DNA of 64,000 bases from Brachycybe producta. Its lineage: Eukaryota > Arthropoda > Diplopoda > Playtdesmida > Andrognathidae. The notes under the pieces are model-generated. The model searched no databases. It worked only from the letters and a program-made list of their open reading frames with translations, and was not told the DNA's origin. Positions within the stretch are counted from its first letter, which is position 1. Each line of letters opens with the position of its first letter. Of this stretch, positions 1,176 to 52,000 are shown one piece after another. The position numbers and the translations under genes were made by a program. The stretch spans positions 4,698,233-4,762,232 of the forward strand of contig JAUPFP010000009.1 in NCBI GenBank assembly GCA_036925085.1, given 5' to 3'.

Positions 1176-1313
1176 TGATTGTCACAATTTTATGACTTTT
1201 TTATATTCTGTAATATGAGGCAATAAGAGTTCGAGAGAAAGACAATGGGGCAACAAATATGAATCTGCGCCACCCTTAAGTGTGTGTGTGGTGGTGGCTG
1301 GGGTTCTTCTTAC

Positions 1314-17576: not shown

Positions 17577-18305
17577 ACATTTACATTCGGAGTCTTTAAC
17601 TTAAATGAAGAAAGATTTTTTTTTGTCAAAGTCAAGAAGAAGAAAAAAAACAGAATAAACTTGTGACGTCAGCAGAAAAGGGGGAAAAATTCATATATAT
17701 TTTTTTTAAACACTAAACAAAAGTATACAATCCTTTTCTATTTGCTATTTAATATGTGAAAAGTGTTCTCATGTGTATTTCATGAGGTGAAAGCCGTCAC
17801 CTGTCATAAAAATAGAATTTTTTTTTAAAACATGTATTTCTTTTTTTATTTTGTATTTCCAGGTGTGTTTAAAGAAGAACTCTTTTTTTTTCTTTCTCTC
17901 TCTTTGAGATTTTTATCTCAAAATAGCAACCAAAAAAAAGTGGGAAAAAGAGAGAGGCAAATACAGAATGTTTTGACCAACCACAATGAAGTCACGACAA
18001 TCTTGGGAGTTGCGCCCACCTGAAGCTGCGATCAGAATACGAAATCATTTGACTATTATCATCATCAATCAACTACAGAAAAACTTGGCTATAAGTTTCG
18101 AAAAAAAAAGTTTTTGTGATCATTTGAAGGCGAAGATCGTAAGATCGGGATTGTCGTACGCTTTCAAGAGTCCAAGAACCTCTTTTTTTTTCCCCTGACA
18201 CCATGTCTCGTGTCGTAGAATCCATATCAAGAGCTTCGACTCATACTTCAACTTTTTCTTCCGACTTACAGATGTTTTAGAATCCAAGTCTTTTAAGTCT
18301 TAACA
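17577..18305 (+). promoter_or_regulatory. Upstream flank and probable 5' UTR of SLC16-B
   Basis: This lies between the last transposon copy and the start codon. The base composition becomes less repetitive from about 17930. Several short out-of-frame reading frames (for example 17986-18198) precede the start codon and could act as uORFs if transcribed. No TATA box or transcription start can be fixed. Confidence 0.4.
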
Positions 18306-21300
18306 ATGGTCTGTACTTCGGCATCTGCCGAAGCCGATGTTATCGCTTACCGTACAGAACTAGGAACTGTGGCGCAGGAAACGCATTCGGACCACTGTTC
18401 GATAGTGACGGAAAATGGAGACATCGTAGAGCCTCGTACTACAAACGTGGCTGTTGACGGCAACGATGCTCCTGATTTTGACAATAACGACGACACTCAG
18501 AGGATGTTGGCCACTTCTGCTACGTCGGCAGCCGTAATTGTTCCGAAACAGCCACAGCAGCAGCAGCAACAACAACAACAACAGCCGTTGTTGTCATCGA
18601 AACGAAACAGATCATCGGCTTCAATCGTTTCGGCTTATATGATGATGCGTAACGGAAGCGTGAGCAGTCGTAAGATGAGAGACGATGCAAACGAAGAGAA
18701 AACTCCGTTTGGTTCTCCGCTGTACTTCGAAGACTCGGTCGTGGTTTACGATAAGGTTCCTCCAGATGGTGGTTGGGGATGGATGGTGCTACTTGGTACT
18801 GTCATTGTCAACACACTCATTCCAGGGCTGATAAAATCGTTCGGAGTTCTGTTTGTTGAGTTCATGAACGTGTTTCAGGCGACTCCGTTCTCGGTGTCCA
18901 TAATTCCAGCTCTCACTTTTGCCCTTTATAATCTTTTAGGTAAGATTTCGTAAAGGTGATTTTTATGCTGAGAGGGTGTCACAAGATTTCTTGCAAGAAA
19001 TCAGTCAAATATTCCTGGAAATTTTGCACATTTTTTTTGCAAAAAAAAAAAAAACCAAGATCAGAATTTTCTGTAACACTGTGTTGCAAGAAACTCCTTG
19101 CAAGAGTCACCCACTCGTATTGGCAATTACGATTAATTCAAGCGCACATTCCAGTGAATCTTGCCTTGAATATTGTCAATGTGATCGCCGCATTAAACAA
19201 GCGGCTGTCACAATTACTTTGTTAAAAATAAGCAGCTACACATACTATTAAAATATGCTTTCAACTGGCACTTAATTCTCTTAAATTCTACTTTCAGCAT
19301 TCATTTATGCTTTTAATTTATGCATTTATGTGTTTAAGCATATTTAAATGTGTGCAATATGCATCTATGCTTTTAAAATTATCTTAATTATCTTAAAATA
19401 TATTTTTCATAATGAAAGTTTTTTTTTAAAAAAAATAATTTAGTTGAAATTGTATTTTTTTTAAAAAAAATTTACAATAGCAAAATTACATAAATATTTT
19501 AAATTTTCTTAAAAAATATAAAAAAATGTCGATTTAAATATTGACTCAGCTAAACAATTACCAAAAATAATAAAGTTAGCCAAAATGTGCAGTAAAACTT
19601 CTAATAGCTAGAATATATACAGTTTGAATACAGCTTTACAGAGTTTAAGAAGTAACTTAAAGAATAAATTCAATGTATATTCGAAACTAGAAAAGTAGAA
19701 TTCCAGAAAGAATTTTTAAATGATAGAATTTAATGATTTTCATTTTTAGGGCATAAAAACTGCCCTAAAAATGAAAATCATTAAGAAAGGACATCATTTT
19801 AACGTTTTCGCCAATAAAATATTTCAATAGAAATTGATATTTTCTAACTGCATTAAAAAATCTATTTTAAAAGATTTGCTTTTTTCCTCCAAAAAAATGT
19901 CCTTAAATTAATTTTGTTTATTATGTTGTTTGTCTTTTGTAAATTAGGACCAGTGGCAAGTGTCATCAGCATCAAGTTTTCGTGCCGATTTGCCACGTTC
20001 TTGGGTGGATTATCAGCGGCATTAGGACTAGCATTGAGCTACTATGCCAACAGCATTGAATATTTATATTTTAGTTATGGAATATTGGGAGGTAATTTCT
20101 ATTTAAATATATTCGAGTTTATAAGAACGGCATTTGCATATTGATGGATCATTACAAATCTGAAATTAAATTCTCATTAAATGAAGTTGAATTAGAAAGA
20201 GTTGAAATTATTTATGCAATTTTTTTTCTTTCCAACTTGGAATCCAAAATTATGCAAGCCAAGTAAGGATTTATAAGTCTGTAGAAAATGTGCCAACAAA
20301 TTTTAAAATGAAATAACTGCAGGCAAATGACTTGACATGTTTTCTTGAAATTATGCAAAATAGATTCAGCAGGTGGATATTTTTTTCACAATTTTTACAG
20401 AATGACACAAATTCTGTGGAAAATATGTAGAATCTTGTTTAGCACCTGAAATACAGAATAGTCAAGAGTTGGAGGGGCCATTTACGCCTTTAAACCCACC
20501 TGATTAATATTTTTTTTCTATTTTTCAAAAGGAATCGGAGCCGGAATGTCTTACACTCCCGGCATTTTGATTGTCGGTCAGTATTTTAGCAAGCGACGTG
20601 GTTTGGCTAACGGCATATGCGCATCGGGCAGTGCTCTCGGTTCGATCATCTTGCCACCGTTTCTGAATTACCTTTTATCAGAATACGGCCACCGAGGAGC
20701 CATACTTATAATGTGTGCTCTTGTAATGAACGTCTGCGTCGGAGCGGCTCTTTACCAACCGGTCGAACGGCATCTGATAAAGGTTCCGAGAGTTGTCGAA
20801 ATTACGAAAGAAGTGAATCGAAACCACTTCGAACGAACTTACAGCAAACCTGATAATCTAAAAGGGTTAATTCTAGATGGTGACCAGAAAAAATCGAAAA
20901 ATCTTGATAGCAACAGTCCGATTAGTTCGAAAAGAGCAGCGTTACGTAGACCTCAAAGTAATCCTCGTTTTCTTCCTGGTCTCAGTTCGGCTGCCGAAGA
21001 GGGCGATGCCTGTGAAAACTGCGCCGAAGTCGGTGGTACCTCGGCACCGAGCGTCAGCTTTATAGTCGGAGCCGGTTCAAGTCCGCAGAACGTTGCCACG
21101 ACAACCGTGACCGGTCTCGGAATGGGTTCGACATCTTCCAATCTAGCTCCAGTATTGAGTCTCCATCGTTCACCGAGCGTTGTCTCGACGATTTCTTCGG
21201 CCTCACTTGCTTACTTGAGTACCATATATCACGGCAGCACACCAGCTGCTTACCAATTGAATCAGATAGCCAGTGGTCATCGCGATTCCTTGTCCGAAAG

Positions 21301-22481
21301 TAGAGGAGCTCTTTCTCAAACTTTCGGCTCGCAGACACGGTGTCTATGCGATCCGTCGAAAAATTGCAAATGCGGTAAATCTGGTGTCGTCTCCACCGGT
21401 AGTAAAGGTGGTACCGAAAAAGTTTCTATTTGGAAACTAATGTTTGATTTAGCGCTTTTACAGAACACTGTTTTCTTGCTGATTACGTACACGGTTGTTG
21501 CATCCGGTATCGGTTATACCAACTTGCTTATCATGTTACCGGCATATGCTGCTAGTCTCGGAATGGAGAAAACGCAATATTCGCTTTTGTTGTCTATTAT
21601 TGCTGGCGCTGATCTCGTGGGTCGTATAAGCGGTGCTTGGATCTCGGACATTGCATCTTTTCCTTGTAAATATCTTTACATGGGAGGGTTTATCGTGTCT
21701 GGGATTGCGTTGATGTGTATGCCGCAAACTACATCGTTTCGAGGGATGTCTCTATGTTGCGCTGTCTTCGGTCTTTCTTCGGGAATTTATATTGGGCTCA
21801 TGGCTGTTCTTTTAGTTCATTATCTTGGAGCCGAGAAACTTGCCTCGTCTTTTGGGCTCAGTCTTGCGGTCAATGGGGTTGTAATGTTGGTCGGACCACC
21901 ACTTTTTGGTACATTTATATTTTTTTTTATATTCATCTATATGAAAAGTTTATTTTAAAATGACTTAAGAGAAGCAATTGCGTGTGTTTCAGAAACTAGA
22001 AGTGGTAACGTTACATTTTTAGTTTCTAGAACACTCAATTTCTTTTGAATGGATAGAATAGAAAATGAGTAATTTTTGTTTTTATAAAGGATTTATTTAA
22101 ACATTCAATGATTAAAGCTTTAATTAATTGAAACTAGAAGAGTAACGTTAACCTCTGCTTGAAGTTAGGTCATTTTTCGAACTTGACATAAAAAGCTTTA
22201 AAACAAATATCAAACATAAAGATACGTTTAAGTGATTGAGCTACCCTTCTAGTTTCTAAAGCCTCGTTTTCAAGCCTAACTCAAATGTGTAATAATTTAA
22301 TGAATGACTTTTTTGTTTCTCAATTCTTGTAGGTGCCATTCTGAAAAGTCTAGGCAGTTACACTCCGGTTATCTTCATCCTCGGAGTCATTATTTTATCC
22401 GGTGGTTTAATTCTGGTTTTGGAGCCTTTTGCTAACCATCACGAGAATAATAAACTAAACGGTCGTGAAATTTTGGTCTAA
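18306..22481 (+). CDS. SLC16 monocarboxylate transporter-like gene B (complete, 4 exons, 767 aa)
   Basis: Exons 18306-18939, 19948-20091, 20532-21908 and 22333-22481 join in frame with GT-AG introns in phases 1, 1 and 1. ATG at 18306 has a good context (AACAATGG). The long N-terminus is low-complexity, with ten glutamines at residues 84-93. DGGWGW at 154-159 opens TM1. Exon 2 gives GPVASV and TM3-TM4. Exon 3 has the family's TM5 motif QYFSKRRGLANGICASG, a loop of about 200 residues between TM6 and TM7 with a Cys-rich patch (CLCDPSKNCKCGK), then TM7 onward. Asp620 and Arg624 in DLVGRI correspond to the substrate/proton-coupling pair of MCT1 TM8. It should be a twelve-helix plasma-membrane carrier of monocarboxylates or similar small acids; substrate is not determinable. 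The large loop is much longer than in MCT1-4 and resembles the insect and MCT9/12/14-like branches. The next SLC16 gene faces it. Confidence 0.96.
18955..19215 (+). repeat. Dispersed repeat in SLC16-B intron 1
   Basis: Partner of the segment at 16130-16395 (see GCAAGATTCACTG in reverse complement). It contains GATTTCTTGCAAGAAATC, a local palindrome. The 89- and 91-codon frames here are not coding. Confidence 0.6.
19731..19783. repeat. Perfect 23-bp-arm hairpin in SLC16-B intron 1
   Basis: TAATGATTTTCATTTTTAGG (arm continues GCA) is followed by a 7-base loop TAAAAAC and the exact complement. It could be a small fold-back remnant or an intronic RNA stem. Confidence 0.85.
21985..22290. mobile_element. 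Fold-back family (TAGAAACTAGAA ends) in SLC16-B intron 3
   Basis: CAGAAACTAGAAGTGGTAACG at the left and GATTGAGCTACCCTTCTAGT with TTCTAAAG at the right are inverted arms with an AT-rich loop. This family recurs in at least 15 places in the window; see the entries at 23690, 26290, 27225, 30330, 30540, 32655, 34600, 36700, 45530, 46550, 49875, 54530, 55555, 57480 and 59510. Confidence 0.75.
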
Positions 22482-26036: not shown

Positions 26037-29000
26037 TTAGATCGAAGTTTCAACTGTTTGATTCCTTTTTTGTTTTAGTTTATCGTATCGTTGAGCGCAC
26101 GGCATCAAGAACATAGCGACCGCAGCTCCGAACGCTATGCTACCCATCAGAAGAAATCCAGGTTGATAATATCCAGTTGTATCCTTTAGTAAACCTGGAA
26201 AGGGAACAATAGTATTTTTTCTTTAAAATTAATAATTAAGATGTTTTATGGAACACCTTATTTATGAACTTCGGTTATTGTGCCGTGTCAAGAGAAATTG
26301 AAAATGTTTTAGAAACTAGACTGGGTAGCTAAATCATTTAATAGTATTTTTATGTTATCTTTCAAAATAAACTTTTTATAGTCAAAATTTTTAAAAAGTA
26401 GCTTAAAGATGGTTAATTTTTTTGAACTACTGGAACATTAAAACGCTTAAGTGATTGAGCTACCTTTCTAGTTTCTAAAACACTTTCTAAGTGTTTTTTT
26501 AATTGTGCACCTGAAGGACAGAATAATCAAGAGTTTGAAAATCAGCTGTTCATAAAATATCTTAATAGATTATTTTGACCAATGCATTTCTTATGCAGTT
26601 TCTGGACTAAATTGTCCTTGTGGCATGAGCCCTTTGAAGCTGATTGCAGATTAGTTATTCAACATTTGACACATTATGCATAATTGCACACCAGGAAGTA
26701 ATTGCAACAGTATATAGTGAATAACGACGTTGCATTGCTGCTTGCATTTACTTGATGGGTGTTCACAATACCCTTAATCTTGACTAACCTGCAACAGGAG
26801 GCATGATAAGCATAACAAATCCTTGAAAAAGCCTCATTAAACCATAAGTAGAAGGTAGTTTCTCCACTCCATGATTATCAGCTAGGATGACTGGTAACAG
26901 CATAAATGATGTTCCAGATCCAAATCCAAATAATGCAGTGCATATAGTTAAAGTGACATAAGAATTTGCAAGCGGTAAACACAATGTTCCGATGGCACAA
27001 ACTAAACAGCTGCCAGAAAAGAAAAGAAAAGGGAGAATTGGTTAGAGAAGAAGTGGCCTCGAAATTCCACTTTTGAGAGGCTGAGATTGATCCTAACGAT
27101 ACTTCAGGAACTTATTTTAGATTCCATTCAGTTCGGACCTTAAAATGTGAATTAACCGTTATGAGTTGTAAAAATCTTGATTGTTTTTAGATGAAAATTA
27201 GTTATTTAATTACAAATGTAAACATTTTTTGTTTCAGAAATAACATTTATGAAATTATGATAAAATTCAAATTTGCTTAGAAACTAGAATAGCAACGATA
27301 GTGCTAAAAGTATTCAAGAAGAACTAATTATATTTAAAAATAAACTTTTTAATGGAAATATGACTCGTTTTAAATTTTCTGAAAATTATTTTTGATTTTT
27401 TTTTTCCCCAAAAAAAGTGAATTTATTTTTAAAAATTGTGAACATTTTTATCATCAACATTTGCTATCCTAGTTTCTAAAAAACTTTGGATTTTAAATTA
27501 TTTTAAAAATTTGCGAAACAAAATTTTTTAAGTAATGCAATGTTTTAGTTAAAAATTGCAAATTACATTCAATTTAACTTAAAATATAACCTAGTTAGCA
27601 ATAATACTTGTATTAAAATTATTAAAATATGATCAATATAAATTTAGTCAATTAATTTTCAAAACAGTTGATGATTTTGCATTTTTGAAAACATCTTAAA
27701 AGCGTTAAAAAAAAAAACCAGAAGAGTAACCGAATCACTTAATATTTCTAAAAATAAACTTTTTATGATAGTTTCTTTTAAAATGGTGTTTGATATTTGC
27801 CCTAAAAACACTCGCCCTACAGTGGTTTTAGAGCAAATATCTCTATATTGCAAGTGATTTTAGGGAAAATGTCCCTTTAAGGCTAATGTATTTAGGGCAG
27901 GTGTCGCTTTAGGGCAAAAAAATATTAGGGTAATCATCCCTTTAGGATAATTCACATTAGGGCAAATGGCTTTAGTAGATGTGTTTTTAGGGCAAATGTA
28001 CAAATACCATTTTAAAAGATATCATCCTGAAAATACCCTTAAGTAATTCGTATACTCTTCACCACAAAGTTGCGCCACAAAGTGGTCTGTGGTAAAGATT
28101 GGCAGCCCAAGTCATACTCAATCATGCCAGCGGCTGTAAAACCATAAATTTACCTAAAAGCTAATCCATGACACCGTTTGACAATCTGAAGATCCATAAA
28201 GTACCCATATGCAATTCTGCCAACCAGATCTACTCCGGAACAGACCGACAATAACATTGCGGCATCCACTTTTGTGATCCCCATAGTCTTTGCGTAAACC
28301 GGCACGAAGAATAAAACGTGAGGAAACGCTCCAGCGATACAAATTGCCGTAACTACGGTCACTGTATAAGTCACTTCATTAAAAAGTTTAAAATCTAGAC
28401 ACATGCTAAGAAATTTAATCATTTGTTTTCCGAATTTTAGAATCCGTGCTTTGGAATTTAATTTTTTCTTATTGTTTCTATAAGGCGACGAGGTGTTTTC
28501 GTCGTCGGTCGTGTCTTCGTCGTCGTAAAAGACACTTGCGGTGGACACATCGTTAAAGCTGTGTCCCATACTCGTACTTAACATTTTCGTATGATTTTCT
28601 CTTGTCGAAAAGGAGCTCGATCTTGGTGGTAAAAGCGACTGCTGCGTATTACGGTGATTTAGTGGCGGTGTCCAAGTGCCGTGATCTTTAAGATGTGGTC
28701 TCGAACTCAAAATCGATGTCTTACGCATTAATTTCTCATCCATTGATTTATTACGGATCATTTTGGTATGTGTTTCATTGGATGGAACTCTTTGAGAGTT
28801 ATTATTGACGTTTTTCGTCGGTGTCGACGACGTTTTCTGAAAATCAGGATGATCGCGCCTCTTTGCGATTTGCCACTTGCCGTTTGGAGTAAACAATAGC
28901 GAGCACGCACTCACGTGTAAGATTATTGCTCCCATGATTAACATCGCACCGCGAAAAGTATAAGCACTGACTAGCATTTTAACAAATATCGGTATCGTAA

Positions 29001-31681
29001 AAGAACCGACGGCTGCTCCCGATAAGCAAAAGCCGCTGGCCAAGGCGCGTTTCTTTACAAAGTACGAATTGATTACGATCACACTCGGTGTTGTACAGAG
29101 TCCAGCTCCGATACCTACCAAACAAAATAGTAAATTAAAATTAAAAATTCATGATGGAAACTTGGTACTTTTGAACCCTCAGAGTAACCCTACTTTGAGG
29201 GTTCAAGTTCAAGAAAACACCTTGTTTGATTAAGTTCGCTTAACAGGGTTTTTATATATTGAAACCCTGCTCTGAGGAAACTAAAGGAAAACTCATGAAA
29301 ACGGTTTTTTTTTTCTTTCAGAAACAGCAACTTGAAAGTGTTTTAGAAACTAGAAGAGTAATTGATAATTTTTTTTGTTAAGAGGCTAGATACATCGTTT
29401 AGTTCAAAATTTCTCCGAATGTAGGCGCTGCGATAGGTTGTTGATTGAAAAACGGTTTTTTAACGTTTTTTCTCCCGGTTCGAAGTCACATAATAATTAA
29501 TAGAAAAATAATTTCGCGTGCTAATCTTATAAAAGGAAAACATTGTGAAGCCAGTAGATTAATGCACGTAATAATTATTTTGTTATTGTTCTGAGTTGTT
29601 TTTGACGGGAGTTCTTCAAATGTTTGGGTGACGGTTTTTTGCTCCTATGGGACTTAACATGGAGTTAAAAAAACGTAAGATTTTAAATGTTATTTAAAAA
29701 TAGAAAGCCCTTTTAAAATTTAGAAGAAGGAATAATCCTGAAGGCAATAAACACATGTAAGTACGTGTTAATTTTTCTGATTGCTCTAAATCATTTTAAT
29801 GAGAGTTCTCTTAACTTTTGTTGGACGGTGTTTTAGTCCTATGGGACTTAACATGGAGTTAAAAAACGTACGATTTTAAACGTTATTAAAAAATAGAAGG
29901 ACCTTTTCAACATCTATAAAAAGGAAACATCGTGAAGCCAATACATGAATGTATGTGCTAATAATTTTGTTATTGTTCTAAATCGTTTTTAACGAGAGTT
30001 TTTCAAATGTTTGTGGGACGGTTTTGGGGCCAATGGGATTTAACATGGGGTTGAAAAAACGAACGACTTTGAACGTTGTTTAAAAATAGAAAGACCTTTT
30101 CAAAAATTATATAAATCGAGCACATGAAGAACAATAGTTTTTATTGCATTTTGCGCTTTACTTTATTTTAATTGAGCGATTGTGAGGCGATTTCTTTCAG
30201 TTTTAGTAACACTATATAAGAACACTCATTTGCCTCGTTGTCGTCTGCTCAAAACAACAAGATGGACGTGGATCTAGGCTCTTAATATGTCTAATTACCA
30301 AGTTTTAAATTTTTGGATATTATCAAGAATTAGAAATTGTCATAAAAAGTTTATTTTGAAAAAAAATCTCTCTTAAATGACTCATTTATCTTTTCTAGTT
30401 TCTAAAACATATGAAATTCTTTCTTAATGTTGCTTTTAAAACACAGAATAACCATATTTTCATTTTATTTTTCTCATTCATTTGCATAATTTCTCATGGC
30501 TACTTTTCAAAACACTTTATTGCAATTAAATTCATGTTAAATTCATTTTTTGGTTATTCTGTCTTTCAGAAGAAAAATTAAGAGAAACTAAAAAAGTGCT
30601 TTAGAAACTAGAAGAGCAGTTTAATCACTAAAATAGTATTTTCATGTTGATATCTTTCAAAATAAAACGTTATAGACTCAAAATAAAAAAAAATATATAT
30701 ATTTGAATTATTAATTTTCAAACTTTTATAAAAGTTATCAAGAAAATACCATTAAGTGATTGAGGTACCCCTTCTAGTTTCTAAAACACATTCAAGTTTC
30801 TCTTAATTTGGAGAGTTTATACTTTTAAAACCACTTTATATAAAACACTTAAGATAATACATTCAGAGTGTGTTGTCTTAATTACCAGTCTGTAATTAAG
30901 TCATTATATTACCTGTGATAAGTCCAAAAGTGATATAAAGATAAAAAATGCTGTTAGCAAAGTAACTTAGTGATAAACCAAGCGAACAACAGAGTCCGCC
31001 TACGAACACCACATTACGGCATGAGTAGATTTTTCCAAGAACTGCTGAAATCGGTGCTTTTGAGTAACCAGAAACAAATAAAATAATATTAAAAAAAACA
31101 CCCCCCTTCATTCATGTAAGTGGTTTTTATAACATACCCAGCCCGATTGATATGGAGCTAAGAAATGCCGGAACCCAACCGGCTTCGGCTTCGGTGCAAT
31201 CTGGAAAAGTCTCGAGGACTTCCAGATGTACAGCACCGTAAGACCTAATCATTCCCGGTATGAACCAGTATACTACAAAGGCTCCAAAAACTACTACCCA
31301 TCCCCAACCACCTTCGTGTGGTTCTTCGAGCTTTACAGCACACTCTTTATTATCGCCTTCTTCTTCTTCTTCTTCGGTGTCACTCTCAGCCTCTTCGGTG
31401 TCTTTCTCGGAACGGTGCTTCTCTGCCAATGTCGCTAGCGAAGACTTGCGACGAGGTATTTGAGAATTTGCCATTTTTACGATAGTTGGACACCTCGATC
31501 CTTGAGGTTTGGCATCTAAGAGCCGTTCATTTGCTTTGAGTGCCGAAGTATGTTTCGATTGTTCGAGAATGGAAGAAGGACACCGAGGATACGAAGCACC
31601 AGTGGCTGCTTCTTCCATAGTCACGGTGTCCTCGGTGCTGATTTGACCGTACTTCTTTGTGTTCATTGCTCCTCCGTCCAT
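26037..31681 (-). CDS. SLC16 monocarboxylate transporter-like gene C (complete, 5 exons, 675 aa)
   Basis: Minus-strand exons 31681-31138, 31056-30913, 29114-28154, 27009-26789 and 26194-26037 join in frame (phases 1, 1, 2, 1). The N-terminus has an acidic stretch (TEEEEEEGD near residue 105), then HEGGWGW (E123-W128) and TM1. Exon 2 is 144 bp, the same size and phase as exon 2 of gene B. Exon 3 carries SYFVKKRALASGFCLSGAAVG (TM5 motif), a polar loop of about 150 residues, and SGVDLVGRI with Asp525 and Arg529, the family's TM8 charged pair. The last exons give TM9-TM12 and the short tail ending VETSI. ATG at 31681 is the first in frame; 31666 is an alternative. An extra intron in the TM8-TM9 region distinguishes it from gene B. 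It is a predicted plasma-membrane monocarboxylate-type carrier with unknown substrate, convergent with gene B. Introns hold several fold-back-family copies. Confidence 0.96.
26290..26560. mobile_element. Fold-back family in SLC16-C intron 4
   Basis: GTTTTAGAAACTAGACTGGG and, inverted, GAGCTACCTTTCTAGTTTCT delimit AT-rich arms with ATCTTTCAAAATAAACTTTT. The right outer flank GGACAGAATAATCAAGAG is typical of the family. Confidence 0.8.
27225..27495. mobile_element. Fold-back family in SLC16-C intron 3
   Basis: Delimited by TTAGAAACTAGAATAGCAAC and GCTATCCTAGTTTCTAAAAA, arms with an AAATAAACTTTTTAATGG core. A following stretch at 27785-28010 repeats TTTAGGGCAAATG-like words seven or so times. 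Confidence 0.75.
29380..30115 (+). repeat. Dispersed segment plus ~190-bp tandem repeat in SLC16-C intron 2
   Basis: At 29380-29455, GAGGCTAGATACATCGTTTA and GAATGTAGGCGCTGCGAT are repeated almost exactly at 38345-38420. From about 29540 three ~190-bp units follow, marked by TATGGGACTTAACATGGAGT near 29646, 29840 and 30032 and by AAAGGAAACATCGTGAAGCC. Confidence 0.82.
30330..30830. mobile_element. Two adjacent fold-back-family copies in SLC16-C intron 2
   Basis: A partial copy (about 30330-30450, right arm with TCTTTTCTAGTTTCTAAAAC) is followed by a full one (about 30540-30830) starting GGTTATTCTGTCTTTCAGAA and ending CTTCTAGTTTCTAAAACACA. Confidence 0.78.
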
Positions 31682-32654
31682 TAATAATTCATATTGCAGA
31701 CACAACTTACAAAAGTGAGGTCTTTATATTTTTTTCTAGTTAATTATTTCGCGAACACGTGCTTTTTTCTGTGAAGAACAAAAGTAACTTATGTGCTTAA
31801 ATTAAGTACCATTTTTCATGATAAGATTGATGGATTTGATTTTAGAAAATATAAAAAAAAAAACAATTGGCCAATCAGTGGTTTGCCACTTGACTATTAT
31901 TATCCACCCCCCAGATTTATTTTTCGTCTTATTGTTCTTTGGTGTAACATTTTTTTTTTATTAATGAAAAATGTATGTTACATTTTTTAAAATAATATTG
32001 CTGAGTCAATAATAAAAGTGGATGTCATCTTTTATTAAAAAAATTATTTAGGTACATAAGTTTTTATTTTATTTCTCAAGAGAGATTTATGTACAAAAAA
32101 TGTTAATACAGCGAAAATCGTTTAAAGCGAAAAATTATTAACACGAAATATATTTCTAGTTCTCTTGATTTCTTAGAACAACAAGCATAAAAAATACATT
32201 TTTAATACGAAAATAAAATATTTTGGTCAATTTCATTTCGTGTTAAATGGTTTCCACAGTTACCGGGTATAGAATTAATATAGTTTTATTATTCACAGTT
32301 TTATTTTCTTAATTCTTTAAATATGGAAACAAAATATGGAACTTATTCTAAAATCAACGCTTTATTATGTAGGCTTTCCCAGACTAAAGCGGAACACGGT
32401 AGGGCGGTATTGGGTATGTCGCGGGACATCCAACATATGGCGGCCCCGCCAACGCTACGGCACCGCCGGCGGGTGGGGCCCATTGCACGCCATATATATT
32501 GGATGTCCCGCTGCTTACCCGCTCCCGTGTTGGTCTAGAAGAGCCTTATTTTAGTACATAGTTAAGTGGTACAGTACATTGTTTAAAATTTATTATCTCG
32601 AAAATAATAAACGCTACTCATTTAAAATTTAAAGTGCTTGTTAAGAATGTTTTA
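31682..32654. other. Upstream flank of SLC16-C, with a GC-rich fold-back at 32370-32545
   Basis: The first ~300 bp presumably hold the promoter of the minus-strand gene; no motif is assigned. At 32370-32545 AGGCTTTCCCAGACTAA and TTGGTCTAGAAGAGCCT are inverted, as are GCGGGACATCCAACATATGG and its partner at 32493-32512. The element is strikingly GC-rich beside its AT-rich flanks. The 71- and 72-codon frames inside it are not genes. Confidence 0.65.
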
Positions 32655-41700: not shown

Positions 41701-42621
41701 GGTTCTTCGGAAACTACGGGAGTCGGTAGTATCGCTGGCGGTGGTCGCTACGACAACCTTGTCGGAATGTTTGATGCTAAGGGAAAGAAAGTTCCTTGTG
41801 TTGGAATCAGCATTGGTATCGAGAGGATATTTGCTATTTTGGAAGCAAAAGCAATGGTACAAATGTTATTTTAAATTTATAGTTTGAAACATTTGTTCGT
41901 TGGAGTTCCTATCAAGTTTTAGTTTCTCTTGAAGTGGAAAATGAAAATAATAATTTTCAAACTCCCATAAAAAGTTTGATTTCAAACGTTCCGTCACTCA
42001 AATTCTTCTAGTATCGAATTGATTTTGAATTTCTTTTAAATGTTGCCACGAAAATTACGCTGGTTGCATCTTAATTAAATTAAAATTTAAAAAAAAACTC
42101 TTAATATTGTATTTTATGAAAAGGAAATTTCTCAAAATAAAAATGTCAATTATTTAATTAGGCTTCGCAAACAAAAGTGCGAACGACTGAAACTCAGGTG
42201 TATGTTGCGTCTGCTCAGAAGAACCTTATGGATGAGCGACTGAAACTTTGCAAGGATCTTTGGGATGCAAAAATAAAGGTTCGGAACTTTGCGCGTAAAG
42301 TTTCTTTTACGTCGAGACGTTCGTTAGAATTTTGAAAACACTGATCTCATTTCAGGCGGAAACTTCTTACAAGAAGAATCCGAAAATGTTAGATCAGCTT
42401 CAGTATTGCGAGGACAAATCGATTCCTCTGGCTCTTATCATCGGAGAGAGTGAATTGCAGAAAGGGGTTGTGACTCTGAGAAACGTTTCCACTCGAGAAC
42501 AGGTCTGTTTTTATTTCTGTATCGTTGTTTGATATCGCTTCTAATCTGTTTTATTTTCTCACAGCGTGAGGTTCCAAGGAGTCAACTTGCCGAAGTAATC
42601 CAATTAACAACTTTACAGTAA
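38711..42621 (+). CDS. HARS1: Histidyl-tRNA synthetase (complete, 11 exons, 515 aa)
   Basis: Exons 38711-38821, 39521-39730, 39916-40011, 40104-40229, 40944-41051, 41121-41219, 41291-41585, 41675-41856, 42162-42278, 42356-42502 and 42565-42621 join in frame with GT-AG introns. The protein starts with a WHEP domain (about residues 1-50, [18 protein letters not shown]). The class II catalytic core follows: [20 protein letters not shown], the motif 2 region [14 protein letters not shown] (172 on), the histidine-binding [10 protein letters not shown] (331-340) and the motif 3 region [10 protein letters not shown] with GISIGIERI. The C-terminal anticodon-binding domain includes [10 protein letters not shown] and [17 protein letters not shown]. 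It charges tRNA-His with histidine in the cytosol, as a homodimer in known relatives. Length is close to the human enzyme. ATG 38711 is the first in frame; 38720 has the better context (AAAATGG). TAA at 38639-38641 closes the frame upstream. Confidence 0.97.
40340..40825. mobile_element. Dispersed element in HARS intron 4, with a poly-C tract
   Basis: TAGTTGACATAATGTTGCAT, GAGACAAAACA and AGTTTGTGAAATTGCAGACA match the left portion of the array at 9045-9200, here as a single unit. An inverted relation to the left part (40370-40560, CAAAACTGAAAC ... TTTCTGTTTTG) suggests a fold-back structure. A C-rich run spans about 40790-40824. The 127-codon minus frame here is not a gene. Confidence 0.65.
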
Positions 42622-42773
42622 CCTTTTTTTACTTTTTTCTATCCACATTCCTAGTGAGAATTGTTAGTTTGGGGTTCAAAGGTCACTTTTATTTGGCTAT
42701 TTATTGAATTGTTAATGTTAAAAGAAAGAACCAAAAAAAAAAATCCTGAAAGACTGGATAATATACAGTATCT

Positions 42774-42779
42774 AATAAA
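42774..42779 (+). terminator. Polyadenylation signal of the synthetase gene
   Basis: AATAAA lies 153 bases after the stop codon and is the first canonical hexamer downstream. Confidence 0.6.
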
Positions 42780-43223
42780 AGATTACACAATTTCTTTAGC
42801 TCATGTTAATAATCATTTGTTGTAGAATAAGGTGCGTTACAGCTGGGACAACACCACAAATTGGAGGTGGAGGCTAGCTGTGACGTGAAGGTAATAATGT
42901 GCAAATAAGAAATAATCCCTAAAATATGCAAGAAAATGTTGCTTCTTATGCAAATATAACCGTTTATTTTATAACAAATGCACAACTAATTAAACGTCCG
43001 AAGCAAATCATAGCTACAATCGCCAGAAGCAGTAATAGAAAATGCAATAGTTATTTTTATGGTACAAAAAATTGTGAGACTTTATGCAAATTTTCACTCA
43101 GTTTGTACATTTTATGCATTTTTTTATTATTGCACATTTGGCACTCATGTGATATCCTAAGTGTGCCCAAAGGCTGTCGGCACCATCAATATGCGTTTTG
43201 GGCATTGTATGTATACTTATGAC
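42780..43223. other. Intergenic, no gene recognised
   Basis: AT-rich with scattered ATGCAA words resembling the adjacent hAT-type element. The 98-codon frame at 42926-43222 shows no family features. Confidence 0.5.
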
Positions 43224-43838
43224 CAGGGCAAGGAGGTTAATGCACTTAAAAGCAACAGAATATGCGAGTATTCATGCAACAAAAACAACTAAATATGCTA
43301 TTAAATATGCACTATAAAAAAATCTTATTCAAAATTTCACCCATAGAAAATTGAAGAAAAATGTTTTATTAGAACTTACATATTGCTATGGCAACAAGCA
43401 ACATTTTTAAATTTTCATCGATTTTTTGTCAAAAAATTTTAATATTTAGAAAAATTTCTCTCAACATCAAGCCTAAGTGGTTAGAGTTTCATTTACATCA
43501 AGTTTATCGTTAATTCCATTTATAAGATGGATCTGATTCTATGTTCCCCTTATGCAGTATATTTCCACAATTTTCATGAAGTCAGAAAAGTACTGAGATC
43601 TATTTTTTTGTTTGAAAAAATTGCAAAAATTACAATTTATGCACTTTTTTTTTGCCAATTTTGACAGAATATGCATGCTTTGAAAAAAAAAAATGACAAA
43701 ATATGCAACAACATGCATTATAAAATTCATATTTAGCTTCAGCATGATATGAATCATGTTCCTATCTCATTTAGCATGAATTCTGAGCCAGAATACTAAA
43801 CATGCATGAATTGCATTTGCATGAACCTCATTGCCCTG
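43224..43838. mobile_element. Non-autonomous hAT-type element, perfect 8-bp TSD
   Basis: Terminal inverted repeats CAGGGCAAGGAGGTTAATGC and GCATGAACCTCATTGCCCTG are flanked by identical CTTATGAC (43216-43223 and 43839-43846). The 615-bp interior is AT-rich and dotted with ATATGCA/TGCATG words, and has no transposase. TIR form and 8-bp duplication indicate the hAT superfamily. Confidence 0.93.
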
Positions 43839-43846
43839 CTTATGAC

Positions 43847-44538
43847 CTTAGTAATTATTCGTATTCAAATAAATCGACAGACGTGCAACCGAAATAAAAT
43901 GGTTTGACTTTCTAAGACGAGAAACATTCCTTTCTGTCCAAAGGTACTTTGAAAAGATGAAATGAATTGATCTCTGCAAGTTATAAACTTGCACGAAGGT
44001 TAAATTGATAATGAACGTCTTGAATAGTGGACCAAATGCTAAACTGTACAAAGGTTAAAATGGTGACGAACTTTTATGAACTGCAAGGAAGTTGACAGTG
44101 TGATTCACTGTACCAAGACTAAAACAAGCAATAACTAAGTGGAATAAGGACCAAAAAAAAAGGGTTATAAGGTAACTGAAAACGAAACAATAACAGCGAA
44201 ACTAAACTAAAAGGGCCAAGAGCTAAAATGAACAGTAATTTAGCTGTACTCATGCTAAAGTGATCAAGGGCTGACCTACTATAATTGGACCTTGCAATAA
44301 ACTTTGCAGAAAATTAAACACGTTTTTGTTGTACAGATGAACAAAAAAAAAAGTGAGATTTTGTAGAATGCATTCTAAAAAAAAAGTTTATCTCAATCTG
44401 TACAAATATTGAAGTTGTTTATAATGTGAATTTGCGTCAGTCTTAAAGTCAATATAAAAGGTATAGAGTAAGTGCAAATACAAGCTCGCGATGAGGGAGT
44501 CTAGACTTTTATTTTCAGGAAGTTGAAATAGTATTAAA
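43847..44538. other. Upstream flank of the TMD0 gene
   Basis: Loose repeats of GTACAAAGGTTAAAATGG-like words occur at 43985-44290. The promoter and 5' UTR of the next gene presumably lie in the last few hundred bases; no motif is assigned. Confidence 0.45.
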
Positions 44539-47227
44539 ATGGTTCTTGAATGGAATAATGTTTGTGGAAATTCCTCTCTATTTTGGGTAAGAAAAACTCG
44601 TTTTCAACATTTCTCATTAGATTTTTTTTTAAAAATATATACTGTATTTTTTTTGGTGGGGGTATTTTTGATTTACTTTAAAAATAGGATTGGAATTTAA
44701 TTTGGAATTCGACATTTACTCATTTTCCTGACTGTTTCCACAATACTGTTTTAATTTGGTTTCCATTTGGATTTCTTTGGTTATGTCTTCCGTTTGAGAT
44801 TTATACTTTAAGAAATAGTCGAAGTGGCTTTGTACCGTGGTCCGTAATAAGTGTTACTAAAATGGTATGCTAATATTTCAAAGGAAATCTACTGTTTTCT
44901 CAGCGTGTGAAAAATTATAATTCTGTTTTAATTCTACAGGTCTTTTGTGGCTGTTTGGTTTGTCTTTTCATTGTGGAATTCAGTAATGTTTTATTTGCGC
45001 ACAGTCAAGGAAAATCTATTTTGACATTCGAGATTTATAATCCGATCATCAAGGCGTTGACTTTAGTGAGCCAGATTCTGTCATAACTTTGTATACAACC
45101 TTTTAATTTATCTTATACAGTAACTGCAACTTGAAATGAGAGTTACTTTTTTTAAAAAGTAACTATAACTAAAGTTACTTTCTTGAAGTAACGGTAATTC
45201 AAAAGAACGGTCACTTCTAGTTACTTCTTTAAAGTATGCCTATGTGCTGATTAATTTACTTTTCTTTTTGGATTTAGTAAAAGTTAAGTTACGGTCTGAG
45301 AGTAACTACACCTCTGGAAGTAAATGCAATTTAATAAAAGTAATTATTTAAGATACTGTTATGTATCTGTAAGTTTATTTTCTTGGTGTAAATGCAACTT
45401 ATGTTACTTTCTGGTAGTAACTGCAAATAGAGATACTTTTTGAAAGTAACTTTCAACTGAAATTCTTTTAGTAAGTTACTTTGATGGTACAGCGATAATT
45501 TTTTAATGACAACTTTTATAAAAAAGACTATCGAAATTTATTGGCAATTGGAATAGCAGACGGTTATTCGTTTTTCAATATAAACATGTAGTGAAAAAAT
45601 ACCATGGAATGTTTATTTTTGTTACATATAATAAAAATGTCTATTTTCCATCGACTATTCGAGTTTTTTTGTAATTCTTTTAAATCTTTTCATAAAGTAA
45701 TGGCACCAATTAGTAATATATTTTTTTAAAAAATTAATTACCAATCAAAGTAACTATAATTCCAATTCATGATTGAAAATGACCCAACTTTCAGCAGACA
45801 ATATTTTGTTACTTTTCTCTATAATAATTTGTTTTGAAAGAGATCAATATGAAAAATACTCATGATGCAGATACTATTCTAGTTTTTAGCACAATTTTAA
45901 TTTTTATTTAAGCAGCGTTTTTAAATCAGCTGATCATAAACATCTTAATTCTGTTTTTTTTTTTGCAGTTTGCATGTATCATTTTGGTTCATTCAGAACG
46001 AATGTATGGAATTCAATTTTCTTATGTTTTGGCCTCATTTTGGGCTTTAGTGTCTTTTGCAGGAGCATTTACATATTTTAGTCTTCTTGGCAAAACTTTG
46101 AATGAAGTAAGTTTTTTGTTTGTTTCAAATTTGTTTCATTTATCAATGTTGTCTTTGTTTCTTCTTTTTTTTTAAAAAAAAGTTCACTTTAGTTGACGAA
46201 AACCAGTTTACTGTTTTTATGATTTATTATCCATTGAGTTTGGCTCAATTTGGAATTCATCTCGTTAGAGATGTCGAGCCTTTATATACATGTATGGAGA
46301 CTGAAACTGACTTGAAAGCCGTAAGTGATATTAATATTTGAATGCAGTACTTTCACTTTAATGCTATATATTATCATTTTAATTATTTATATTCAGTTTA
46401 ATGAAGTATAAAAATGTATATTTATTCAGTTTATTGTTTTATTTTAATTTTCATGGCAGTTTTCTCTTTTTAATGTACTTTGTTTTCCGTTTATAATGAA
46501 GTATTTATATTCTCATGTCATATTTTCATTTTAATTAGTTTTTTTTTTTTGGTTGTTTTCAGAAGCAAAATTAAGCATAACTAGAAAGTGTCTTATATAC
46601 TAGAAGGGTGACTGATCAATAATAAGCTTTTTGTTTTGAGTTTGAAAATCAATATTTTGAAAGATAACATTATATATATATAATATCCCAGGTCTGTGTG
46701 TGTGTGTGTGTGTGTGTGTGGAGTAACAAAACCATTGAAGCACGTCGGAATTTATATAAATTTGAATAAATGAACCGTTTTTTTTTCTAAAGGTCAACTA
46801 TATGTTGAACTCTTCCTTTGGAAAGTGTAGAAGGGGGGGGGAGAGAAAAAAGTGGTAGGGGGTGACTGAAATTGAAATGAAAGGAGTAAAAACAGGAAAA
46901 AACGACGCGCATGCGCACAATTGCCTGTGAATTTTGCTCCCGTTATTTATGACGGGTTACCCCACTAGTTATTAAAATAATAAGTGATTGAACTACCTTT
47001 CTAGTTACTAAAACCCTTTCTAATTTCTCTAAATTTTGCTCCTAAGTTCGAAAATCAGCTGTTTATAAACCATCTTAATTTATTATTTCCTATTTTGTAA
47101 TTTTATATAATATTTATGTATTTTTTTTCACACTTTAAAAAAAAATCAAATTTTGTTTTAATAGCCTTTACTGCAAAATGAAGATAATTCCGAAGAAGAA
47201 ATTATTGACGACTCTTCGCTTCGTTAA
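44539..47227 (+). CDS. ABCC/MRP-type TMD0-only protein (6 exons, 229 aa)
   Basis: Exons 44539-44586, 44688-44864, 44940-45065, 45969-46106, 46183-46320 and 47165-47227 all join in phase 0 with GT-AG introns. The protein begins MVLEWNNVCG, then FWDWNLIWNSTF and CFHNTVLIWFPFGFLWLC, which closely match the extracellular N-terminus and TM1 of ABCC1-type multidrug resistance proteins. Five hydrophobic segments follow (about residues 40-58, 72-100, 110-130, 140-160, 170-190), the full TMD0. The next exon should enter the L0 linker and the first ABC core; instead it encodes PLLQNEDNSEEEIIDDSSLR and a stop. No Walker A, signature or core membrane helices follow before the anoctamin gene 1.2 kb on. 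It is either a stand-alone TMD0 protein or the remnant of a larger transporter gene. Intact frames and splice sites in all six exons argue for selection. A strong Kozak (AAAATGG) supports the start. Confidence 0.85.
45110..45490 (+). repeat. AGTTACTTT-rich repeat in TMD0 gene intron 3
   Basis: GTTACTTTTT and AAAGTAACT recur about ten times in both orientations, able to pair with each other. A shorter example lies at 39150-39200. Confidence 0.6.
45530..45945. mobile_element. Fold-back family in TMD0 gene intron 3
   Basis: Diverged copy: arms carry AATATAAACATGTAGTG on the left and ATCAATATGAAAAATACTCA with TATTCTAGTTTTTAGCACAA on the right, followed by the flank AATCAGCTGATCATAAACAT. Confidence 0.6.
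46550..47080. mobile_element. Fold-back family split by a Helitron-like element
   Basis: The left part (46557-46670) has TTCAGAAGCAAAATTAAGC and ATACTAGAAGGGTGACTGAT. The right part (46970-47080) has AAGTGATTGAACTACCTTTC and AAAATCAGCTGTTTATAAAC. The two halves flank the insertion at 46686-46968 in intron 5 of the TMD0 gene. Confidence 0.78.
46686..46968 (+). mobile_element. Helitron-like element, copy 3
   Basis: TCCCAGGTCTGTG start, (TG)n, GAAGCACGTCGGAATTTATA, shortened GA tract, GCGCATGCGCAC, 3' hairpin with one mismatch (CCCGTTATTTATGACGGG) and terminal ACCCCACTAG before T. It is nearly identical to copy 1 apart from the GA tract. Confidence 0.85.
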
Positions 47228-48466
47228 AAACTATTTTAAAGTATTTTTATTTTACTGTTATAAAATGAATCTGCATTTAATTAATTTTTTTAGATTAATT
47301 TTTAATTTTTAAAAAAAAATATTTTGCACAAAGTGTTTATAGAAAATGTTTTAATTGATTAAATATTGTTTTGATCATTTTTTTTAATAATTTCTCAATA
47401 CAATTCACTTATAATAATTAAGGATAAAATATTGTGAAATAGGGATTTATGATTGAAACTGCGAAAAGCTATGAGCATAGGGTATTTGCGGATGCGTGTT
47501 ATAGCTATGCGGATTATAGTTAATACACTTAATCACAATTTACATATTTATCAAATTGAGACGTGCTTTTTAATAATTTTTTAATTAGGCATTGGACCTT
47601 GATATATGACAGAATGCAACAAAAAAAATAATTGAAATTCTATACAACAGGATGTGTATTTTTTTAATTAAAATGTCAAGGCCGCTTTACGTAAGCGTAT
47701 ACTGATGTGTGTTATGCTTTGTTAGAACTTATAAAGCTGTTAGATTTTATAGAGCAATTTTGGTCAATAGCGGTCTATAGGTAAATTGACGTCACGAGCA
47801 CTCGGAGTGAATAAGAAAACGCTTCCAATATTATAAGCTAACCGTGTAGCACAGCCAAAGAAGGATGCAGATGACAGATGATATGTTTATTACGAAATGT
47901 TTTGAAGCGCAGACTGCGCAGTGCAGGACGAAGATTATCGTTTATATTAGCGAGAAGGGTGTACTAACATGGTGTTATGATTCAATATAATATAAGCGGT
48001 TAGTCGCCGTATGAATGTACTGTAGGAAAGCTTCATACAAATGACGTCATGTTACAGGCGTCGTTTTTTTTCTCTTCTTCATTTGCTTGAAACCTGACGT
48101 TGTTGTCTTGTTGACATGTTTTTGACATGAAATGGATTGACTGCTGATGAAAATGTAAGTTTCTTGACTTTATATTCGTTAATTTCTATGCGGAAATGTA
48201 ATTAATATATTTCAGAGTGATTCATAAGTTGTATTTATACGTAAAAACTTGAAAAATATGTTATTTGCTAAATGTTTTGATGCATAAAGGCGGCTGCTGC
48301 GGTTATTTGATTGCAGTAAAAACCGCAATCGCATCATGGTTATGTATGCTTGTGATGCGCATGCGGATATATCCGCAAATGAACTGTCTACATGTATATT
48401 TTATTTTTCTGTCGTTGAAGAAAAGCAGAAGACGTGCGGATCGAACAACAGTGAATTGAGTCAGCG
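47228..48466. other. Intergenic: TMD0 gene 3' flank and anoctamin upstream region
   Basis: ATTAAA at about 47358-47363 may serve as a polyadenylation signal. GATGAAAATGTAAGT at about 48140-48155 looks like a splice donor and could end a non-coding first exon of the anoctamin gene. The in-frame TGA at 48452-48454 shows the anoctamin start is downstream. No other element is recognised. Confidence 0.45.
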
Positions 48467-48990
48467 ATGGCTAAACGACCGTTCAGCACTCCTGGTAATA
48501 TTTATCCGCATTTCAATGGAATGACGTCAGATACGGATGTCTACTCAAGTGCTCCGCAGAGTCCGCAACATAATGGGACCAATTCTTATGAGACGGGTGG
48601 GTTGTTTTTGTGTTTATTACGGTTCTTTGTGTAAATACAAGAAATTATATGCAACGTTTTGTATAGAATGTTTCAAAATTAGGGTTTTCTTTAGAGTTGT
48701 TCCTAATTTAAGGTATGCCGCTTCAAATTATACATTTTTATTGCACCAATATGGTAACGTCAATGCCTCTTCGCGTTCTAGGTTCGATCCTCCTGGAACA
48801 AGTAGTTTGTATTAGACGTGGTCCGAGCTCAGATCTCATTTAATACAAACTAAATTTTCCATCATTTTCTAACGTTACTTTAGAATTTTCATTGAGATGT
48901 ATGTAGTTTTCTGCATAATAAACAATTATCTTGCATAAAAAAGTGTTAAGAAATGATTTTTACTGAAGTCAAAATCCAAATTTACCAATC

Positions 48991-49064
<74 letters not shown>

Positions 49065-52000
49065 CCCTTTTTTACTACGTTCTTCCTTCATGCTTTCTAT
49101 GGATTAAGCAATTGACAGAAGAGCTAAAGAAAAGTAGAGAATTAAATAAGTGATTCACAACCGACATGCATCATTTCGTTTTTTTTTTTTTGCAAAACCT
49201 ACAAATGTTGTTACTAAATAATTGCCAATTTTTTTTAGCTTCCGAGATGAGTGTCTATCAAAGTGCGTTGGATTTGAACGAACCGATTCGACCGTCTGCA
49301 GCTTCTGTACTTAAAGACGATGGGTTTAATTCGAGACCTCCTCCTCCTTACGGTCGTCCGTCTTCAATTATTCCTTTGGTTGAAGAGTCGTCTCAACGAA
49401 CTTCTTCCACTCATCACTCAGTGGTAGAAGTTTTAGCTTATTACTAGTTTTTTATGGACGAATCCTGTTTTAATGCGATGATTTCGTATTGGTTTCTTTC
49501 TTAGCCAAACACAGATTTGTACTTTCGTAACGGAAGACAAAGAATTGATTTCGTGTTAGTTTACATGAAAGCAGAAGGAAACAGAGAAGAAAGGAACGTC
49601 GAAGCACGGAAGACGTTTGAAGATAATCTTATCGGCGAGGGTCTTGTATTGGAATATGAAATTGAGGTTCATTTTTGTACTTTGGGTCACAACGTATAAC
49701 GTTTTTTTAAAATTTATTTTTCGAAATTATTTTTTTTTTCCTGTTTATTAGGATGGAAGAGATTTTAATTTTGTCAAAATTCATGCACCATCGGATGTTC
49801 TGATGCGTTACGCTGAGATTATGAAGTTTAAAATGCCAATGAAGAGGGTAAGGGAGGAGTTTTTCAGTGAAGTATAATTTTCAGAAGTTTCATTAGAAAC
49901 TAGAATAATTGGTCGTTGTGCTAAAAGTATTTTCATAAAAATAAACTTTGTATAGCAATTTTTGAAAATTATTTTTTTTTTATGAAAAAAAAAAAACGAC
50001 GATAAAAATTGAAATTTTACTTTTTTGAGTGACTTACTATTCTAGTTTCTAAAGCGGATGCTACACGTAGCAACAATCAAGCAACAATACTAGTTGTAGC
50101 AACAGTAGTTTCCTATTTGTTGCAAGCAACACCTATGATACATGTTGCAACGTTCATGAAACTTAGATGAAAACAACAACCAATGAAACAAAGAGGCTGT
50201 GAGCCAAAGACTGTAGACATTTTGCTTCGTCTTTCTCTTCTTCATCAGTTGAAAATTTGAAATAGTCATGTGATTATTCAAGCCGTTTTTATTGGCTGTT
50301 GGCTGAATTGAAAATTCTGTTGCAACAATTTGGGTTTGAGCAACAATTTGGGTTTGTTGCTGTTATGACAGATGTTTCAACTTTCATGAAACAATAGAGC
50401 AACACGGCTATGTTGCTCTAAAGTTGCTGAATTGTTGCTACGTGTAGCATCGGCTTAACAATTTTAACTTTTAAGTTGCTTCTAAAAAAATGTTGCGTTC
50501 GTTTGAAGTTGGGAAGTTCGAAACATTTTTTTTTAAACTAATAATGATTTTAACGGTTTCTTTCTATCGTTCGGATTGTATTTTAGTCGGTAAGTTGTTT
50601 TATATGTTGTTTTCGTTACCATAAATTAGAAAGTAGAAGGTTTTTTTTATTGATTTTTGTTTTGTTGACATATTACAAGCAATATTTATCAAAATTAATT
50701 ACTTGCCCCTCTGCCACAGGCCTTCTTTGCTGCTTGTGCAAGTACTTATTTCGCAAGCAGTCTAAATGGGCCTATGGCAGGGGAACTACTTAGTTCAAAA
50801 TTAATCAAAGTTCGTATAATGTAACCAAATTGCAAAGAAGCATTTTAATTTTGCAAATTTTATCGTGATATTTTTTCGTACTAATAACGCATGATTGTAA
50901 CGTGAAGTAAATTTTTAAGACGAAGTGTTTCAAAAGAGGCTTTTCTCTGCATGTGTTATGTGTGTGTGTGTGTGTGTGTTTCAGTTGGAAAAGTTGACGC
51001 AGATTGGGCGAGTTAACGATGAAACCAATCCGATTGGCCTAACACTAGCTTTCAGTCACGCTAGTATCTTTTCTAACGTAAGCATTTTTGATGTCATCTT
51101 GAAGAGTTTTATATGATTATAAAAATCTTAATTTAAGCTGGGCAACAGAAGATTAATCTTGAGAAATTTGAATTTTAAAAATTGTATCTGTAAGCAGCCA
51201 AGAAGGCTTGTGGCAGAGGGACAAAAGAGAGCACATTAGAGCATACAAATGCAGTGTTAAAACCCAAAGATATAAACCGAATAACAATTGCAGTGTGTTC
51301 TGGTGCATCTGTAATAATGCATTGTCAGAAAATTAAAGAGCTTCCTTAACGCAAGTTTATTTTCATGCTTGAAAAACCTGAATTGTGTTTCAGTATCTAC
51401 AGAATGTTGCGAGCAGTTGTGGTGCGTTTGTACTAGGTGACGTATGTTTTAGACAGTTATAAGATACTTTCTATTAAAAAGAAATCGACTTATGTCTTTT
51501 TAAGAGGCTTCTGCGCGTTTCTTGGCAATAAAGCAAACGAAGTCTACGGAGACTTGAGTTTTTCAATGTTTTTAGGCGTTCAGCGCAAGTTTAATCCTTT
51601 GGAGCCCTCCTATTTTATGGCAATTTAACACTTTTTTGGCCGTTTGTCTCGAAGTGGCATTTAGACATGCAAATCTTTTATTCTAACAAAAAACCTTTTA
51701 CGGAACGGAACTTTCTATCTTTCCTTATATTTTCTGTTTTCACATTAGAATAATTACGTTCGTGGCAGACTTATTGAAGGTCTGTAAGCTTTACTTTGTT
51801 TCACCTCGTAGCTTTCAAGAGAAGATATTACTAGCAACGCGGTACGAGCAGATGAACACGAGCTCAAAGAGGGTTTTCTTAACCGATTGTGCGTTGGTTG
51901 CTTCATGAATCCTATTACGTTACCTCGTAAAGCAAAACAAGTAAAAGCAGAGTTTACTAGAGAGAAGTCGTTTTTGTAGGTTTCAACTTAGTGGACAATA

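Follow-up and report, generated by a model that had tools for sequence, protein, structure and literature searches.

A candidate stand-alone TMD0 gene of the ABCC1 type in the genome of Brachycybe producta

The window analysed here is a stretch of 64,000 nucleotides of Brachycybe producta contig C9 (JAUPFP010000009.1, positions 4698233-4762232), taken from a genome assembly of 295 Mb in 442 contigs. Between a histidyl-tRNA synthetase gene upstream (Pfam match, 6.4e-7) and an anoctamin gene downstream (Anoct_dimer, 2.8e-12, and two Anoctamin matches), a gene of six exons lies on the forward strand at 44539-47227. The joined exons comprise 690 nt and encode 229 residues and a stop codon, with no internal stops, and all five introns are of the GT-AG type and in phase 0. 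The joined exons and their introns thus confirmed the six phase-0 exons and the complete 229-residue protein proposed in the first-pass annotation. The features of the gene, in window coordinates, are as follows.

44539..44586, forward strand: exon 1, with the start codon, the N-terminal segment, cysteine 9 and the sequon N11-S-S
44688..44864, forward strand: exon 2 (177 nt), with the sequon N23-S-T, C32, TM1 and the start of TM2
44940..45065, forward strand: exon 3 (126 nt), with the remainder of TM2 and the first half of TM3; donor gtgagc
45969..46106, forward strand: exon 4 (138 nt), with the remainder of TM3, a loop and TM4
46183..46320, forward strand: exon 5 (138 nt), with TM5 and the start of the predicted cytosolic tail; donor gtaagt
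46321..47164, forward strand: intron 5, the position at which the paralogues continue to an L0 exon
47165..47227, forward strand: exon 6, with the acidic tail PLLQNEDNSEEEIIDDSSLR and the stop codon, in place of the L0 exon
47358..47363, forward strand: possible polyadenylation signal ATTAAA, 131 bases past the stop (a pattern match only, one of four such patterns)

Retention of intron 5 would close the frame six codons past exon 5. This intron carries a dispersed repeat at approximately 46669-46984, for which 39 other long copies with 85-95% identity and shorter pieces with 70-92% identity were scored, and a second, short dispersed repeat at 46990-47104 with 39 other matches (78-89%). An Rfam search of 42000-50000 returned no matches. 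Elsewhere in the window, monocarboxylate-transporter-like genes were found at 18297-21955 (forward strand), 26787-31723 (reverse strand) and 1279-1668 (reverse strand), a likeness that we take from their PDGGWGW-type motif. Pfam assigned MFS_1 to 20504-21955 and 28153-29148 and no family to 31130-31723 or 1279-1668.

The encoded protein matched the Pfam family TMD0_ABC (PF24357) with 28.4 bits (cut-off, 27), the sole family above its cut-off; the other of the two families listed, GCK (E 0.24), was below its own. All 12 distinct PDB sequences found at E <= 0.1 were ABCC1, ABCC2 or ABCC3. The best match was MRP1 (E 6.8e-23), residues 11-199 of the query corresponding to residues 11-199 of MRP1, followed by ABCC3 (1.2e-16) and ABCC2 (1e-13). 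These Pfam and PDB matches bear out the initial view that the protein represents an ABCC1-type TMD0 alone. The same annotation had drawn a comparison with SUR1. The likeness to MRP1 stood, and that to SUR1 was weaker: no SUR chain appeared among the PDB matches at E <= 0.1, and the closest similarity was not to ABCC8 or ABCC9. Five hydropathy peaks (threshold, 1.2) were located at residues 36-54, 69-87, 107-125, 134-152 and 173-191, with two additional shoulders at 114-132 and 143-161, and these five predicted segments match the five-helix layout of a TMD0. The protein has N-glycosylation sequons at N11 and N23 and cysteines at positions 9 and 32, and N23 and C32 align with the same-numbered residues in MRP1, where C32 pairs with an N-terminal cysteine. 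The N-terminus is presumably on the outer side, an orientation carried over from MRP1. At the opposite end, the final 29 of the 229 residues include 10 acidic and two basic ones.

In the two relatives on contig C1, a short L0 exon (NACPRNTASF.. or AACPRNTASF..) comes after exon 5, and exon 7 (..LLWRGYRT.. or ..LLWKGFRT..) comes next. No relic of these exons was recognised at 46321-48470: four queries scored 29, 23, 24 and 25, values equalled by 33, 95, 92 and 69 of 100 base shuffles, respectively, and two control queries on the region of copy C1b scored 99 and 145. The earlier description of an acidic tail where L0 should begin is therefore upheld, with the exon 6 tail and its stop at this position and no L0 relic. 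A broader search with 117 ORF pieces from two C1 core regions, many of which are not exons, recognised no core exon, either within the window or in the 6 kb upstream of it. It produced 22 hits at E <= 0.1 (best, 3e-6 at 53110) which, inspected by eye, cover no core exon and look like repeats of introns. Outside C1, the 60 best hits of these queries fell in the C3 cluster (54) and another C3 piece (6). On contig C9, no ABC membrane or nucleotide-binding matches were present among the candidates scored, namely the best 19 of 212, the best 85 of 141, 109 of 109 and 29 of 29 in the respective searches; since only the best candidates were scored, the absence of a distant core is not proved. The L0, two core TMDs and two NBDs of an ABCC transporter were thus not found in the window, the 6 kb upstream or C9, within the scope of these searches. 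It had also been claimed that no ABC core or NBD precedes the next gene, and this was borne out within the same scope, as no core exon was recognised before the anoctamin gene. Without a core transmembrane or nucleotide-binding domain, ATP-driven transport by the protein itself is excluded.

A search of the genome with the TMD0 protein gave 14 matches, six to the gene itself and eight elsewhere; the latter define seven additional loci, of which C1 carries two and C3 five. The Pfam TMD0 profile run on the genome returned eight hits, none above the cut-off and none at the gene in the window, probably because single exons are short, and the loci counted here are those of the protein query. With TMD1 of one paralogue as the query, 10 matches were obtained at seven loci, each lying downstream of its own TMD0 by approximately 2-11 kb, and NBD2 matches were present beyond each of these seven TMD0/TMD1 loci. 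The genome thus holds eight TMD0s versus seven ABCC1-type cores, and no core was found without a TMD0; this pairing covers ABCC1-type cores, with less similar ones, such as that on C22 (55-59% in NBD2), set apart. Given that each core lies beside its own TMD0, relocation of a core is unlikely. A split gene, in which the relocated core is now a separate protein pairing with the free TMD0, would have a precedent in TAPL, whose TMD0 and core function as separate chains according to the available text of PMC6199259, but the position of all seven TMD1 loci just downstream of their own TMD0s makes it very improbable here. Splicing of exon 5 to a distant core was likewise considered and was unsupported: the matches listed included none on C9, and the search for ABCC1-type cores turned up no unpaired one. 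The possibility raised at the outset that the gene continues from exon 5 into a distant ABCC core therefore received no support from the genome search, in which the seven cores were near their own TMD0s.

The ABCC1-type paralogues have introns at corresponding places, all in phase 0 up to intron 5 in the copies located. The end of exon 1 (CGNSSLFW) resembles exon 1 of copies C1a and C3B. Of the seven paralogue copies located, six have an exon 2 of 177 nt and one has an exon 2 of 180 nt; exon 3 has 126 nt in C1a and 123 nt in C1b; the 138 nt of exon 4 recur in C1a, C1b and C3A; and exon 5 measures 129 nt in C1a and C1b versus 138 nt in the gene on C9. This comparison of lengths was restricted to limits set by splice sites, so that exons 3 and 5 of C3A and exon 4 of C3E, with limits set by peptides, were left out. 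The corresponding exon limits identify the gene as an eighth ABCC1-type member that stops exactly at intron 5. It is an ABCC1-type copy that has the first five exons, no core past intron 5 and a short acidic last exon with a stop codon. The suggestion that it originated from a duplicated transporter is supported by the corresponding introns, the ABCC1-type TMD0 and the absent core.

The TMD0 on C9 shares 30-39% identity with its paralogues and 27% with bovine MRP1, and the paralogues share 35-48% among themselves. Judging from these values of 27-39% to its relatives, the gene is an old lineage. In a tree of seven TMD0s, two of which were partial, it grouped with one C3 copy with a support of 0.84, and the deeper node had a support of 0.37; owing to this weak support, no parent copy is named. 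Within the family, three ABCC1-type copies on C3 (exon 2 at 588447, 601558 and 620779) encode an identical 59-residue exon 2 peptide, which, on the basis of this identity, is a sign of recent duplications.

Several further observations concern the assembly as a whole. A single-strand array of many ABC_membrane and NBD2-like exons at C8:6175087-6359025 probably represents short ABCC transporters. The ABC matches at C6:3413397-3419480 and C158:20259-26345 were nearly equal in score and spacing, suggesting a duplicate haplotype contig or a very recent copy. In addition to the likely mitochondrial contig C442, COX1-like stretches were found at C1:12697416-12698753 and C17:4027703-4029047, one of them with an in-frame TAA, and these two are probably nuclear copies of mitochondrial DNA.

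Loss or misjoining of real core exons past exon 5 through an assembly error could also produce a gene of this form, and the dispersed repeats at approximately 46669-47104 are the kind of place that is prone to misjoins. However, the best 40 of 774 candidates for 46990-48200 included no second match past 47104, the sequence continues into a recognisable anoctamin gene, and no unpaired core of the ABCC1-type clade was found. An assembly error is thus hardly to be expected. Read-through or alternative splicing might instead join exon 5 to an anoctamin exon and yield a TMD0-anoctamin chimera. Acceptor-like sites at 49247, 49505 and 49752 are in frame with exon 5 for 66, 64 and 41 codons, respectively, and the exon at 49505 is part of the anoctamin dimerisation domain (Anoct_dimer, 2.8e-12), but such compatibility of frame is often expected for phase-0 exons. 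Furthermore, visual inspection suggests that the anoctamin gene possesses an ATG of its own (48467) as well as an upstream exon followed by a donor, and exon 6 already provides a stop codon. A chimera of this kind appears highly improbable.

The alternative that carries real weight is that the gene is a functionless fragment, left when a duplicated or rearranged ABCC1-type gene recently lost its core, with exon 6 arising by chance or remaining unused; we consider this a serious possibility at somewhat below even odds. The frame is open, and no disabling change was seen in it or in the ten splice dinucleotides, all of which are intact. Synonymous divergence among the paralogues (dS of 1.8-2.0 in three of six pairs, undefined in the other three) indicated saturation, so that dN/dS between paralogues was uninformative. 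The persistence of the open frame was evaluated by simulated neutral drift from the present sequence (2000 runs, substitutions only, without indels), in which the frame and ATG remained intact in 40% of the runs at K=0.02, 12.1% at 0.05 and 1.7% at 0.1. The 20 splice bases would stay intact with probabilities of 0.67, 0.37 and 0.14 at the same values of K, and these figures multiply those for the frame. Neutral decay beyond approximately 0.05 substitutions per site is thus unlikely, and the open frame and intact splice dinucleotides, taken together with this simulation, imply that constraint has been kept or was lost only recently. The open frame counts only against a loss of constraint older than approximately 0.05 substitutions per site.

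Other features of the coding sequence are consistent with such a fragment. Of the 33 positions at which the other four complete TMD0s all carry the same residue, the TMD0 on C9 has lost that residue at 10, among them S and G of the SSG motif, and the same leave-one-out count for those four was 4/27, 1/24, 3/26 and 6/29; the count used the five complete TMD0s, leaving out two partial ones and two more copies from C3 that share the exon 2 peptide. This excess loss counts in favour of a functionless fragment, and it is equally compatible with relaxed constraint and with a domain released from its core. Third positions are AT-rich, with a GC content of 0.29 versus 0.255 in introns 1-4 and 0.316, 0.333 and 0.556 in paralogues. 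Intron 5 carries the dispersed repeats described above, and any acceptor would yield some tail and a stop codon, 25 pyrimidine-rich AG sites being present in 46330-50000. In the spider mite, ABC fragments are common and mostly silent, as described in the excerpted report PMC3724490.

The codon score of exon 6 is that of coding sequence and argues against a functionless fragment. It was the highest among the six exons, and against 2000 open noncoding stretches of equal length it ranked in the top 2.5%; exons 2-5 were in the top 1.3-6.7% and exon 1 in the top 22% of such stretches. The null comprised 2000 stretches per exon (1881 for exon 2), and the exact peptides served as training. The score of the whole CDS was approximately 0 (-0.015 per codon) versus -0.3 for noncoding sequence, and this near-zero value counts against a functional stand-alone protein. 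Seven of the 20 residues of exon 6 are acidic, a proportion matched by two of 3623 overlapping open noncoding 60-mers; as this property was chosen after being seen, the figure is suggestive only.

On balance, a selected free TMD0 that acts in trans on ABCC transporters is favoured over a young functionless fragment, with a rough probability of 0.45. The structural part of this reading, a complete TMD0 with its own C-terminus, is seen in the sequence, and from it we infer expression, topology, partner and effect. The product of the gene would span the membrane with five helices, carry glycans on an N-terminus exposed on the outer side and extend an acidic tail into the cytosol. Through the contact surfaces that a TMD0 normally uses, the free TMD0 might influence in trans how one or more full-length ABCC1-type transporters are assembled or sorted, or how stable they are, and thereby be an escort or a competitor; the acidic tail could serve sorting. 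By analogy with the TMD0s of SUR1, TAPL and ABCB6, binding in trans to ABCC1-type transporters would be its likeliest function. More generally, we tentatively propose that a natural free ABCC-type TMD0 is under selection here as an independent regulator, an escort or dominant competitor, that acts on full-length ABCCs or on a different membrane partner and has gained an acidic tail for sorting. The gene offers a modest lead that can be tested, rather than a new system. Because TMD0 is normally attached to the pump, its role in MRP-type transporters is difficult to investigate. If the gene is expressed, a natural free TMD0 would make partners and sorting accessible in isolation from the transporter and would illustrate how truncation can create a regulator. 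If it is a mere fragment, arthropod ABC families contain many others like it.

Among known systems, the TMD0 of MRP1 (PDB 9j9f, 6bhu) is similar in that residues 11-199 align with only a two-residue gap, five helix peaks are present, and N23 and C32 are retained. Unlike in MRP1, the TMD0 on C9 is not joined to L0, TMD1, NBD1, TMD2 and NBD2, with the acidic tail and stop codon replacing L0, and the conserved SSG of the TM3-TM4 loop is FSY. The ABCC1-type paralogues examined share corresponding introns and nearly equal exon lengths with the gene, but they continue into L0, TMD1 and NBD2 where it stops. According to the available text of PMC3870925, the TMD0 of SUR1 alone binds Kir6.2 and alters its surface expression and gating. 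The accessible portion of PMC6199259 describes that the TAPL TMD0 in trans restores lysosomal targeting of the TAPL core, that the ABCB6 TMD0 alone localises correctly and reaches lysosomes, and that in MRP1 and SUR1 the helices of TMD0 make no contact with the core. As far as these sources go, the three TMD0s can be made as separate chains, sorted and bound to partners, as the proposed function of the C9 protein supposes (PMC3870925, PMC6199259), although they are laboratory constructs and the C9 TMD0 is a natural gene. The trafficking or regulatory role suggested in the first-pass annotation would thus have an experimental precedent in other TMD0s. Phrases such as “stand-alone TMD0” were not found in the literature searched, a scope outside which most subscription journals lie; three other TMD0 phrases do occur there, at least on TAP, TAPL and KATP.

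The spider mite Tetranychus urticae has 41 loci with incomplete ABC genes that were judged likely fragments or pseudogenes, nearly all of them unexpressed, in the excerpted account of PMC3724490. These resemble the gene on C9 as arthropod ABC-related loci without a core domain, and the mite ones are mostly ABCC or ABCH (PMC3724490, same excerpt). In the part of the literature represented by the available text of PMC10816444, the nearest natural case is URG7, which derives from human ABCC6 pseudogene 2: a truncated ABCC copy whose N-terminal part exists as its own protein, with a cytosolic C-terminal region. It comprises 99 residues with one helix, the first 75 identical to ABCC6 and followed by a new tail, and activity of its own has been reported (PMC10816444). 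In contrast to the single helix of URG7, the gene on C9 holds the whole five-helix domain in an old, diverged lineage. A complete, diverged and natural five-helix TMD0-only gene would thus extend the known truncated ABCC copies.
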